From: Minisyncoccota bacterium
GTDB lineage: Bacteria; Patescibacteriota; Patescibacteriia; Patescibacteriales; UBA12465
Assembly (NCBI GenBank): GCA_021734405.1
Contig: JAIPJA010000005.1
Span: 1 to 46,114, forward strand
DNA length: 46,114 nt
Direction of reading: 5' to 3'
Shown: piece by piece, positions 26,004-30,874 of the stretch
Layout of the letters: each line of letters starts with the position of its first letter
Numbering within the stretch: the stretch's first letter is position 1
Position numbers and translations under genes: made by a program
Notes under the pieces: generated by a model
What the model saw: only the letters and a program-made list of their open reading frames with translations
The model's database searches: none
What the model was told of the DNA's origin: nothing

Positions 26004-26777
26004 ATGTATAAAATTGTATTTATTAGACATGGTCAAAGTCTTTGGAATAAAAAAGGTCTTTTTACCGGCTGGGTTGATTCTGAAAAGCAAGGACAAGAGA
26101 TTCTAGACGTTGATTTAACTCCTAGAGGCGCCAAAGAAGCCATAGAGGCAGGCAGACTTTTAAAAGAAAAGGGTTATCATTTTGATTTAGCTTATACCTC
26201 TGTACTGCAAAGAGCAATAAAGACTTTAGATATTGTTTTAGATGAAATGGATTTAATGTGGATACCAGTAATAAAGTCTTGGAAGCTTAATGAAAAACAT
26301 TACGGCAATTTACAGGGTTTAAATAAAAAAGAAACTGCTAGAAAATTAGGAGAAGAACAAGTTTTTGCTTGGCGCAGGGGCTATAGAGTTAGACCCCCCA
26401 AGATAAAACCGAGTAATAAGTATTATACCAAAAAAGACCCTCGTTACCAAAATTTAGATGCTAAAGAAATTCCTTTAACTGAAAGTTTGCATGATGTAGT
26501 TTTAAGAGTAAAGCCTTATTGGCACAATGTAATTAGTAAACAAATTAAAGCTGGCAAAAAAATTATTATTTCAGCTCATGGTAATAGCCTTAGAGCTTTA
26601 GTTAAGTATTTAGATAAAATTCCTGATGATGAAATATCTTCTTTTAATATACCTACTGGCATCCCTTTGGTTTATGAACTTGATAAGAATTTGAAACCTA
26701 TAAAAAGTTACTACTTGGGAGATCCTAAAGTGATAGCTAAGCTAAAAGCAGAGGTTAAAAATCAGGCTAAAATTTAG
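26004..26777 (+). CDS. gpmA: 2,3-bisphosphoglycerate-dependent phosphoglycerate mutase
   Basis: [22 protein letters not shown]…[14 protein letters not shown]. Confidence 0.94.
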
Positions 26778-26816
26778 TTTAAGGTTATTAACCTTTTCTA
26801 AAACCTTTTCTAAATA

Positions 26817-26845
26817 TTGTCAAAAAAAAGATTTTATTTTATAAT
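26817..26845 (+). promoter_or_regulatory. Sigma70-type promoter for short module 1
   Basis: TTGTCA - 17 bp - TATAAT. Confidence 0.7.
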
Positions 26846-26906
26846 AATATTATAGCCATAATGGCTTTTTAACCGTTCATTAATTAAATATAGGAGACCC
26901 CAAATT

Positions 26907-26939
26907 ATGTTTGTATTTCAAATTTCAGATCTTCGTTAA
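26907..26939 (+). CDS. Putative micro-ORF MFVFQISDLR
   Basis: SD-like AGGAG upstream of ATG; 10 codons plus TAA. Not in the ORF track because of length. Confidence 0.3.
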   Translation: MFVFQISDLR

Positions 26940-27012
26940 ATGCCGGTCCGGAAATCATGGCTTTAGTTAACTAAAAAACGAAAAAGTAAGTTAACTAAAA
27001 ACATAGGTTTAA

Positions 27013-27049
27013 AATGCCCCATAAAATTATTGGGGCATTCTTTTTTAAA
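27013..27049 (+). terminator. Intrinsic terminator of module 1
   Basis: AATGCCCC…GGGGCATTCTTTTTT. Confidence 0.8.
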
Positions 27050-27107
27050 AATAATTGTTTATTAATAATATTTTAAGTTTTTAATTTTGTAGTTTTTAGT
27101 TTTATGT

Positions 27108-27271
27108 TATAATAAAAATAGCCATAATGGCTATTTGTTCATTTACTCACTAAAGCATAGGAGACCCAAGTTATGATTGTTTTGGACATAAGAATTAAGA
27201 TAACATTGTCACAAGAAAAAAGAAACTGAACTTAATCGTAGCAAATGCCCCGCCAAAGACGGGGCTTTTTT
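27108..27271 (+). ncRNA. Short transcription module 2, paralogous to module 1
   Basis: -10 TATAAT, ATAGCCAT-A-ATGGCTAT (27118-27134), GCATAGGAGACCCAAGTTATG, micro-ORF, terminator GCCCCG-CCAAAGA-CGGGGCTTTTTT. Confidence 0.5.
27173..27229 (+). CDS. Putative micro-ORF MIVLDIRIKITLSQEKRN
   Basis: SD-like AGGAG upstream of ATG; 18 codons plus TGA. N-terminus resembles module 1 (M-F/I-V-F/L-x-I). Confidence 0.3.
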   Translation: MIVLDIRIKITLSQEKRN

Positions 27272-27321
27272 ATATTTGAAGTTTGAAAGTTTATTTAGAG
27301 TTTATTAGTATCTCTTGGTTT

Positions 27322-28869
27322 TTATTTTATAATAACTTGCCCAACAGGGATGTCGGCTATTAAATACCAAGGCACTGTTTGTACTTGAGAGAATTTATAG
27401 CCATTAGCTATAAAAGCTTCTTTGCTAAAAAAGGGTAGTTTTTTGCCATTGGCAATTAAATAAACAGTGTTTCCTTCAGGGGATTTAACTAAGCTTTGGT
27501 TAGCTATAGGCGTGTTTTTGGTTAATTGGTTGGAATGAGTTACTAGTTCGGTTGTTTTATAATCTTTAAGATCTTTTTCACTAGCAATTATCACGTCTTT
27601 ATCTTGATAATTTAAATATTTAAATACTAACCAATTGGCTATAGGGCGTTTATATTTTCCATCTATAACATAGACAACGCTTTTATTAGCTTGTTTAACT
27701 ACTTGCCCATCATAGAATTTACCAAAGTAACCCTCAGTCGTTTTATAGGCTGATAAGTCAGTGCTAGAAATAGTTTTTATTTCTTTATCATAAGCTAGTT
27801 TATTTAAACTGTTGCCACTAAAGGGAATTTTTTTATCTTCATAAATTAAGTATTTTTCAGACTTTTTAGAGCTAGTAGTTACAACATCCCCACTTTTAAA
27901 GTATAGGCTTAAGTAGTCTTCATTTAAAGGAAGGGTTTTAAAGCTATAGATGCTACTCTTTAGGGTTTTAGAGTTTAAGTCACTTTTCATTTCTATTTTA
28001 AAATAATAGATAGTGTTTGGTTGTAAATTTTCTAAAACCGCTTTATGCTCTAAAGCTTTAGAGCTTATTTTTTTAGAACTTTTTAGTTTTTCTGGATTAG
28101 TGCCATAAAATATTTTTGATTCAGCTAAAACATTACTTTCCCAAGTAATAATAGCAGTCTTAGGCATAAGTTGTGCTTGTTCATAACTTTCGGGGCTCAG
28201 GTTGCGCATAACTAATTTGTCGTATTCATTAGAAAGTCTAGTGTTTATATTTTTAATAGTAATTAAACTATTAGATTTTTTATCTGTTAGAGTTATTTTT
28301 ATTTCATATTTGTGATCAGGCTCAAGTTTTTTTAGTATGATATCATGGGTAGTTTTATAAGAGTTAGTGCTCCAACTTTTATTTAAAGACTCATCTTTTA
28401 CTCCATATTTAATAGAAACTTTAACTTTTTCATCAGTTTTTATCTTAAAATTAATAGCTCTGTTAGTGGTTTGTAAAATAGAGAAGTCTATAATTTTAGG
28501 TCTTTCTGTATCGGCCATGTTTTCCATATCAATATATTTCATAAAGGACTCTGATTCTTCTCCGTTTTCATTGTAAGCTACAACTTTGTAATAATAAGCA
28601 CTATCACTTTCTAGTCCAGTTAAAGTTAAGCTGTGATAGTTATCATAAAGACTGCTTCCTACTGACATATCTAAATTATTAGCGTTTTTACCAAAATAAA
28701 CTGAAACTCTGGCATCTTGGTCAGTATTGCAAGTCAAAGTTGCCTGATGGTTTTTCAGGTTTTTCATTTCAATATTATATATAGCTGTTTGAGCCTTCCC
28801 CGGCAAAGGGAAAGATAATAAAACAGTTAATAAAGAAAAGATAGTAATTTTTGCTATTATTTTTTTCAT
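27322..28869 (-). CDS. Secreted fibronectin-III-like surface protein with C-terminal repeats
   Basis: Signal peptide (IIAKITIFSLLTVLLSFPLPGKAQ); Fn3-like segments (DSAYYYKVVAYNENGEES, PNTIYYFKIEMKS); C-terminal repeats of type YLI-x-GKK/R-P. Confidence 0.75.
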   Translation of the reverse strand: MKKIIAKITIFSLLTVLLSFPLPGKAQTAIYNIEMKNLKNHQATLTCNTDQDARVSVYFGKNANNLDMSVGSSLYDNYHSLTLTGLESDSAYYYKVVAYNENGEESESFMKYIDMENMADTERPKIIDFSILQTTNRAINFKIKTDEKVKVSIKYGVKDESLNKSWSTNSYKTTHDIILKKLEPDHKYEIKITLTDKKSNSLITIKNINTRLSNEYDKLVMRNLSPESYEQAQLMPKTAIITWESNVLAESKIFYGTNPEKLKSSKKISSKALEHKAVLENLQPNTIYYFKIEMKSDLNSKTLKSSIYSFKTLPLNEDYLSLYFKSGDVVTTSSKKSEKYLIYEDKKIPFSGNSLNKLAYDKEIKTISSTDLSAYKTTEGYFGKFYDGQVVKQANKSVVYVIDGKYKRPIANWLVFKYLNYQDKDVIIASEKDLKDYKTTELVTHSNQLTKNTPIANQSLVKSPEGNTVYLIANGKKLPFFSKEAFIANGYKFSQVQTVPWYLIADIPVGQVIIK

Positions 28870-28948: not shown

Positions 28949-29928
28949 GTGCACACACATATTGCACTTTTTGGTAAACTAGAGGCATATGAAAACTATG
29001 CCAAACAATACAATAGAAGAAAAATATCGATGGATTAAACCAATCCTAGATAAAGAAGTGACAATTAAACAAATGGTGAAAGTATCTCCATTTAGTGAGA
29101 GGACCATTAAGTACTGGTTAGCTCGCTATAGGGGCAATGGTTTAGAGGGATTGAGGAATAGATCAACTAGACCTAAATCTCAACCTAATGAGCTTTCCAT
29201 ACGTGTTAAAGAGAGAATCATTGAATTAAGAAAAGAAACCCATCTCTGTGCTAGAAAGATGAACTACAAATTAAAGAAGGAAGGATTAGAGGTCTCTGAT
29301 AGAGTTATTGGTAAGGTAGTTAAAACAGAAGGTTTAGTAAGAAAATATAGAGTAAGAAAATTGAAATATAGGTATGTCAAGATTTTATTAACTCCAGGAG
29401 AGTTAGTAGAGATAGATATTAAGTATGTACCCAGTAAAATTAAGGGTAAAAGATATTATCAATATACAGCCATAGACTGTGCTAGTCGATGGAGATATCT
29501 AAAAATATATGATGATATGGGTAATGGTTCATCTATTAAGTTTTTAAAAGAAGTAATTAAAGTAGCTAAATTTAGAATTAGAGCGATAAAAACAGATAAC
29601 GGTAGTTGTTTCACAAACAGGTACACTGGCTACCTGAAATCAGCTGATCCAATGAGCCCTAGGCTACATCCGCTAGACCTAGAATGTCAAAAACTAAACA
29701 TTATTCATTATCTAATAGACCCGGGCAAACCCGCACAAAACGGTAAAGTGGAGCGTAGTCATAGAACTGATCAAGAGATGTTCTATGACAGAAACAAATT
29801 AAAAACTCTTCCAGAACTGGAAAAGAAAATTAAAATATGGAATAATTATTATAATAACTTAGAACATTGTGCCCTAGATGGTCTCACCCCAAACGAGGCT
29901 TTAGCTAGAGTGCAAAATGTGTGTGCCT
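28949..29928 (+). mobile_element. IS481-like insertion sequence
   Basis: Inverted repeats GCACACACATATTGCAC (28951-28967) and, as reverse complement, GCACACACATTTTGCAC (29910-29926), flanking a single transposase ORF. No clear TSD seen. Confidence 0.85.
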
Positions 29929-29930
29929 AA
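28989..29930 (+). CDS. IS481-family DDE transposase
   Basis: N-terminal HTH (FSERTIKYWLARYRGNGLEGLRNRSTRP); DDE core (LVEIDIKYVP, AIKTDNGSCF, GKVERSHRTDQEMFY). Confidence 0.92.
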   Translation: MKTMPNNTIEEKYRWIKPILDKEVTIKQMVKVSPFSERTIKYWLARYRGNGLEGLRNRSTRPKSQPNELSIRVKERIIELRKETHLCARKMNYKLKKEGLEVSDRVIGKVVKTEGLVRKYRVRKLKYRYVKILLTPGELVEIDIKYVPSKIKGKRYYQYTAIDCASRWRYLKIYDDMGNGSSIKFLKEVIKVAKFRIRAIKTDNGSCFTNRYTGYLKSADPMSPRLHPLDLECQKLNIIHYLIDPGKPAQNGKVERSHRTDQEMFYDRNKLKTLPELEKKIKIWNNYYNNLEHCALDGLTPNEALARVQNVCA

Positions 29931-30028
29931 AACAAAAAAAGTTTTTATATTAACCTCATAATGGTTAGGCTCTTTATTTTTATAAAAAGTTTATAGAAAT
30001 TTTAACTAGCCTTTGTTATACTAACTAC

Positions 30029-30874
30029 ATGATTAAAAAAGACAATAAAATTATATTATTTAATAATAAACAAGTTCGTCGTCACTGGGATGAGGAGAAA
30101 GAGCTTTGGTATTTTTCGGTTGTGGATATTATTGAAATTTTAACAGATAGCCCGAGACCAAGAAAATATTGGCATGCTTTAAAAACTAGATTAATTGAAG
30201 AGGGTAGTGAGTTGTCCCAAAAATTGGGACAACTGAAACTGTTCGCTTCAGATGGCAAAAAATATCTTACAGATGTATTGGATACGGAAAATATTTTAAG
30301 ACTTGTTCAGTCAGTTCCTTCTCCCAAAGCCGAACCATTTAAGCTATGGTTGGCTAAAGTTGGTTATGAAAGAATAGAAGAAACAGAAGATCCTGAATTA
30401 AGCATAAATAGAGCTATGCAGGCTTATTTAAGAAAAGGTTATTCTAAAGCCTGGATCAATCAAAGACTTAAAAGTATCGAAATTAGGAAAGAATTAACTG
30501 ATGAGTGGCAAGAAAGAGGAGTTAACAAAAGAACAGATTTTGCTATTTTAACTGATGAAATTACTAGGGCTTGGTCAGATAAATCTGTAAAAGAGTATAA
30601 GAAATTTAAAAACCTTAAAAAACAAAATCTACGAGACAATATGACTAATTTAGAATTAGTTCTTAATATGCTAGCTGAGGCTTCTACAACTGAGATATCT
30701 AAAAAACATAAACCAAAAGGTTTACCTGCAAACAAAAAAATTGCTAAAAGAGGTGGTGGGGTAGCTAAAAAAGCTAGAAATGAAATAGAAAAAGATATTG
30801 GAGAAAGCATTATTTCTAATAAAAATTCCAAATATTTACAAACAAAGACAAAGAGAAATTTTAAAAAGCCTTGA
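30029..30874 (+). CDS. BRO-N domain / DinD-like protein
   Basis: Bro-N-like start (WYFSVVDIIEILTDSPRPRKYWHALK…); DinD-like C-terminus (ITRAWSDKSVKEYKKFKNLKKQNLRDNMTNLELVLNMLAEAST…AKRGGGVAKKARNEIEKDIGESIIS). Confidence 0.8.
   Translation: MIKKDNKIILFNNKQVRRHWDEEKELWYFSVVDIIEILTDSPRPRKYWHALKTRLIEEGSELSQKLGQLKLFASDGKKYLTDVLDTENILRLVQSVPSPKAEPFKLWLAKVGYERIEETEDPELSINRAMQAYLRKGYSKAWINQRLKSIEIRKELTDEWQERGVNKRTDFAILTDEITRAWSDKSVKEYKKFKNLKKQNLRDNMTNLELVLNMLAEASTTEISKKHKPKGLPANKKIAKRGGGVAKKARNEIEKDIGESIISNKNSKYLQTKTKRNFKKP

Follow-up and report, generated by a model that had tools for sequence, protein, structure and literature searches.

The DNA window analysed here, a stretch of 46,114 nucleotides from a genome of about 1 Mb, contains a 544-nt gap (26778-27321) between gpmA (26004-26777, plus strand) and a convergent gene on the minus strand (27322-28869). 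The gap lacks open reading frames of at least 60 amino acids and is filled by two units that follow each other head to tail on the plus strand, 266 nt apart, one at about 26817-27046 (unit 1) and one at about 27100-27272 (unit 2). They are built to a common plan consisting of a 5' hairpin, a strong Shine-Dalgarno (SD) sequence, an ORF of 10 or 18 amino acids and an intrinsic terminator; a complete promoter-like element is present only in unit 1. Two consecutive units in this gap without ORFs had been noticed in an initial annotation, and the elements described there were all recovered in place. Near the site after gpmA, which is variable among relatives (see below), an IS481-type transposase gene is followed by a gene with a Bro-N domain (window positions 28989-30874).

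Unit 1 starts with the promoter-like element TTGTCA-17-TATAAT (26817..26845; 11/12 matches). In unit 2 the -10 box TATAAT is present (27108..27113) and a -35 box is not recognizable, the best candidate at a spacing of 17 nt matching in 2/6 positions. The claim of a promoter-like element in each unit is thus upheld for unit 1 and not for unit 2. The region has 9 promoter-like sites against an expected 9.1 and is therefore not enriched in them. About 4-6 nt past the -10 box, near the inferred +1, begins a block of dyad symmetry. In unit 1 (about 26852..26868) this block includes the perfect 13-bp dyad AGCCATAATGGCT, which can fold into the hairpin AGCCA-UAA-UGGCU (26854..26866, its first base 8 nt past the -10 box), a weak structure of -5.0 kcal/mol that was equalled by 29 of 200 shuffled sequences. 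The corresponding hairpin of unit 2 (27116..27136) has 9 bp, corresponds to the 21-bp dyad AAATAGCCATAATGGCTATTT and reaches -8.7 kcal/mol.

Both units carry the motif AGGAG 9-10 nt upstream of an ATG, within the segments ATAGGAGACCCCAAATTATG in unit 1 (26890..26909) and ATAGGAGACCCAAGTTATG in unit 2 (27157..27175). Micro-ORF 1 (26907..26939) specifies the 10-aa peptide MFVFQISDLR, and the ATG of a further ORF of eight codons, MPVRKSWL, lies directly 3' of it. Micro-ORF 2 (27173..27229) specifies 18 amino acids, MIVLDIRIKITLSQEKRN. The tiny ORFs are therefore present as initially described; the similarity attributed to their N-termini proved marginal, with 9/15 nucleotides past the ATG alike and 107 of 2000 shuffles scoring as well. 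The micro-ORFs differ in length and their first codons agree weakly. Neither is a convincing candidate for a conserved peptide.

The body of unit 1 contains an inner hairpin with 16-nt arms including TTTAGTTAACT/AGTTAACTAAA (26957..27004) that is absent from unit 2. Each unit ends in a strong intrinsic terminator, as had been proposed: AATGCCCCA...TGGGGCATT plus a T-run in unit 1 (27013..27046; -14.5 kcal/mol) and GCCCCGCCAAAGACGGGGC plus a T-run, with a GCCCC stem, in unit 2 (27247..27271; -12.0 kcal/mol). Both fold better than nearly all shuffled versions and they resemble each other to a degree reached by 1 of 2000 shuffles. Folding of the complete units also exceeds that of shuffled sequence (z = -2.7 for unit 1 and -3.5 for unit 2), an excess that is in large part supplied by the terminators. 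The stretch GGTCCGGAA in unit 1 was considered as the apical loop of an SRP RNA and dismissed, its 3' side being unpaired and Rfam reporting no SRP RNA at this position.

When compared with the whole genome by blastn, the leaders of units 1 and 2 match each other with an E value of 3e-11. This similarity is confined to islands, i.e. the -10 region (13/14 identical), the 5' dyad or hairpin (15/15), the segment from the SD to the ATG (18/20) and the terminators. In alignment the intervening stretches do not surpass shuffled sequence: 386 of 2000 shuffles were as good for the spacer between hairpin and SD, 531 of 2000 for the body past about codon 6 and 507 of 2000 for the sequence 5' of the promoter. 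Because identical islands alternate with stretches at shuffle level, the units are best interpreted as old, diverged tandem duplicates, neither fresh copies nor evenly decaying relics, in which, on the evidence of a single pair of sequences, the control elements have probably been kept selectively. Such a mosaic is expected if promoter, 5' element, translation start and terminator were under selection, and uniform decay would not leave it. The 5' hairpin and the near-identical ribosome-binding and start region of the initial annotation are hence found in both copies, and the selection that it suggested for them gains support from these blocks amid otherwise shuffle-like sequence.

Strong SDs are the exception in this genome. 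In genome stretches totalling about 436 kb (about 43% of the genome), on which the SD and target statistics rest, AGGAG stands ahead of a plausible start in 6 of 355 genes of at least 100 amino acids. The same 436 kb contain 13 intergenic sites of the form AGGAG-N4-10-ATG, two of which are units 1 and 2. Several of the others mark the beginning of recognizable genes, namely genes for accessory proteins of 80-148 amino acids and one for a peptide of 28 amino acids. The latter belongs to a third unit that follows this plan (16780-17000 of L268, contig C13 of G000), which combines TTGACA-17-TATAAT, AAGGAGG, an ATG and a terminator and encodes the hydrophobic peptide MVIFTVIGIIAILSFSAWLANKLEANKL; a search of 109 genomes of the order returned no match to it. 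Since strong SD sites also start accessory genes and this 28-aa microgene, units 1 and 2 share the expression plan of these genes.

Some further small genes of the genome were noted. Small accessory proteins of 113-148 amino acids are encoded at 1144-1540, 1819-2270 and 6302-6660 of L276 and on the minus strand of L080; they look like paralogues with a common C-terminal pattern (FW....L, R..W.I/V), and each of their genes is equipped with a terminator and a strong SD, in contrast to the majority of genes in this low-SD genome. An orphan unit at 5742-5953 of L267 (G000 contig C28), for which no convincing homologues were detected, comprises a promoter-like box, a 5' hairpin, the 17-aa ORF MKNKLKSRKAGFNLNSS and a strong terminator. 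Another orphan region resembling a transcript (11690-11884 of L072, G000 contig C4) has a TTGACA promoter, a terminator at its end and near-repeats of AAAGAAGAGGTATTTTTCAA(A/G)ACTATGCTACACTTT.

Searches for relatives of the two units returned very little. Neither pattern searches nor blastn revealed further copies in the genome itself, and a leader profile (R1) retrieved no convincing relative from 111 genomes of the order; its leftover matches (0.006 per genome or worse) were mostly AT-rich promoter-like or coding stretches and were put down to chance. When unit 1 was compared by blastn with 192 relatives and unit 2 with 381 genomes of the class, only a terminator-like match in G025 emerged. 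Rfam reported no family at its gathering score for positions 26778-27330 and, at a loose threshold, nothing near any gathering score; phages and plasmids contained no match to the units. The combined hairpin and SD pattern occurred across all genome contigs in one sequence from Propionibacteriaceae, which was likewise regarded as accidental. The SD pattern by itself is common ahead of unrelated viral ORFs among the matches listed and is therefore not diagnostic. This bears on L008 of G013, a gene for a 156-aa protein that has the same 18 nt, AAATATAGGAGACCCCAA, ahead of its ATG. AUAGGAGACCC followed by AUG precedes many unrelated viral ORFs among the matches listed, so that the L008 match need not indicate homology; it is more readily explained by an SD context that recurs and does not prove common descent. 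The protein family to which L008 belongs is also represented in L024, L026, L027, L029, L030, L032 and L037 and occurs in 23 of 145 relatives, in several copies in some of them. Its seed has no Pfam match, the variable C-terminal tail (NANVLDYLLAHPELIPEEWKGK..FFWGTIYR...) looks like a putative hypervariable target region, and the genes often possess long structured leaders of the type TTGCCACAGC(A/G)GAAAG...CTGTGGCAAAATCA.

In the closest relative found (G002, gpmA 76% identical) the gene 5' of gpmA is kept and other genes follow on its 3' side; the site is therefore variable. The units have so far been found only in this species, and the absence of homologous copies, which the initial annotation would have taken as speaking against its proposal, holds for the genomes searched within the family, order and class. 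As the relatives searched did not include a second genome of the same genus, this absence does not refute a function, nor is it unusual for genes of this size given that the 28-aa microgene was likewise found in no other genome searched. Genome size and the character of the relatives point to a member of the candidate phyla radiation. Literature searches turned up nothing of direct relevance to SD use or small RNAs in this group. The feature is real, composed of ordinary parts and unmatched in the libraries searched.

Several known systems resemble the units in part. Stabilizing 5' leaders of the ompA type (5' stem-loop) and the cryIIIA type (STAB-SD) combine a 5'-terminal stem-loop with a strong SD situated in a short leader close to its 5' end. 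This strong SD has its counterpart in the AGGAG of both units, a motif rare in the genome, and the dyad block near the inferred +1 may correspond to the stem-loop. These leaders precede long coding genes, whereas the units measure about 155-195 nt in total and carry an ORF of 10-18 amino acids. Dual-function small RNAs such as SgrS/SgrT, VcdRP and AzuCR share a short transcript (a predicted one here) that includes a small ORF and ends in an intrinsic terminator; the ORFs of the units are smaller and come without homologues in the genomes searched, an Rfam match or, among 355 start regions, a target scoring above shuffled controls. Type I toxin-antitoxin loci in tandem (Ibs/Sib, Ldr/Rdl) also consist of paralogous units between genes, with a conserved leader ahead of a tiny ORF, but the peptides considered here have no hydrophobic membrane segment, inspection by eye revealing no membrane-spanning run in MFVFQISDLR or MIVLDIRIKITLSQEKRN, and no antisense promoter stands out: promoter-like sites on the minus strand across the units, as far as consensus-type promoters are concerned, are weak and not above chance. 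Transcription-attenuation leaders (trp, his, erm) have a promoter, an SD, a leader peptide and a terminator in common with the units, which differ in lacking a downstream gene on the same strand. As both units end in a terminator of their own and the next gene (27322-28869) is convergent, nothing downstream could be attenuated and the attenuator or decoy-leader part of the initial interpretation finds no support, in contrast to its suggestion of selection on hairpin and start region.

The explanation that we favour, and to which we give about an even chance of being correct, is that the units specify stable, ribosome-engaged short RNAs in which the 5' hairpin and the strong SD are under selection and which yield a peptide of 10-18 amino acids, act at the RNA level, or both. 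It is suggested by the nature of the conserved features: a review identifies occlusion of the 5' end and/or a strong SD, whether or not a start codon is present, as the determinants shared by stabilizing leaders (PMC3997798). The tandem duplicates would be transcribed and terminated independently, with transcription beginning at the hairpin or immediately beside it, so that the stem-loop at or next to +1 would close the 5' end. The strong SD about 40 nt further in would recruit a ribosome to the tiny ORF, where a short peptide could be made or the ribosome might merely occupy the RNA, and the terminator would release a transcript of about 155-195 nt. Translation of the micro-ORFs is likely. 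The islands of identity, the rarity of strong SDs and the third unit in the genome also speak for this explanation; the unrecognizable -35 box of unit 2, the unequal lengths and weak initial agreement of the two ORFs, the lack of homologues in the other genomes searched and the weak hairpin of unit 1 speak against it. We infer transcription, stability, translation and selection from the DNA, the last from the comparison of one pair of sequences.

The main rival, unlikely in our view although it deserves the most weight among the alternatives, holds that the units are relics, i.e. promoter, ribosome-binding site and terminator of duplicated genes for small accessory proteins, the coding parts of which have been deleted or eroded. 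Genes with a strong SD, here and in relatives, are otherwise largely accessory genes for proteins of about 80-150 amino acids with their own terminator (L276, L080, L072), the site after gpmA is occupied by other genes in the closest relative found, and the 18 nt shared with L008 may be seen in the same light, although many unrelated viral ORFs have a context of this type. Decay would not spare the hairpin and the SD yet randomize the spacer between them, and fragments of a gene resembling either body were not found in the genome. The island pattern thus disfavours erosion of a longer gene, which the initial annotation had named as grounds for abandoning its proposal.

Only slightly less probable is a pair of base-pairing regulatory RNAs, non-coding or with a dual function, in which the SD would stabilize the RNA or belong to the segment that pairs. 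There are precedents for dual-function RNAs with small ORFs, such as VcdRP with its 29-aa protein (PMC8672173), and the better-than-shuffled folding of both transcripts, the strong inner hairpin of unit 1 and the Rho-independent terminator at the end of either unit would fit. However, the best duplexes with 355 start regions were no better than those of shuffled controls in the sample, which covered about 43% of the genome; beyond the leader, the bodies of the two copies are not conserved, and an Rfam match is lacking. A still smaller probability is attached to the idea that the conserved 5' element acts mainly as a DNA operator and that the units are repressor-controlled microgenes. It arises because AGCCATAATGGCT forms a perfect dyad at +1 (13 bp, extended to 21 bp in unit 2), the symmetry of which runs through the bases of the would-be RNA loop, the central bases being identical in both copies. 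Against it, these two are the only sites in the genome with fewer than three mismatches, sites with three mismatches are about as frequent as those of the control, and no recognized regulator gene adjoins the pair; a single pair of sequences cannot separate an operator from a hairpin.

To return to stable, ribosome-engaged RNAs, a bolder and very improbable proposal is that the ribosome-engaged leader itself, consisting of 5' hairpin, strong SD and start codon, could be the selected product with the peptide free to vary, and that the units may represent a lineage-specific class of micro-genes of very small genomes, for example a ribosome-binding decoy or a reserve RNA in a genome otherwise hardly using SDs. 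Tandem micro-gene units with strong expression signals do occur in this reduced genome, in which a strong SD is seldom seen, and standard gene-finding programs would overlook them. Should the pair be transcribed, it would offer a compact test of whether the initiation of translation, and not the peptide, is under selection.
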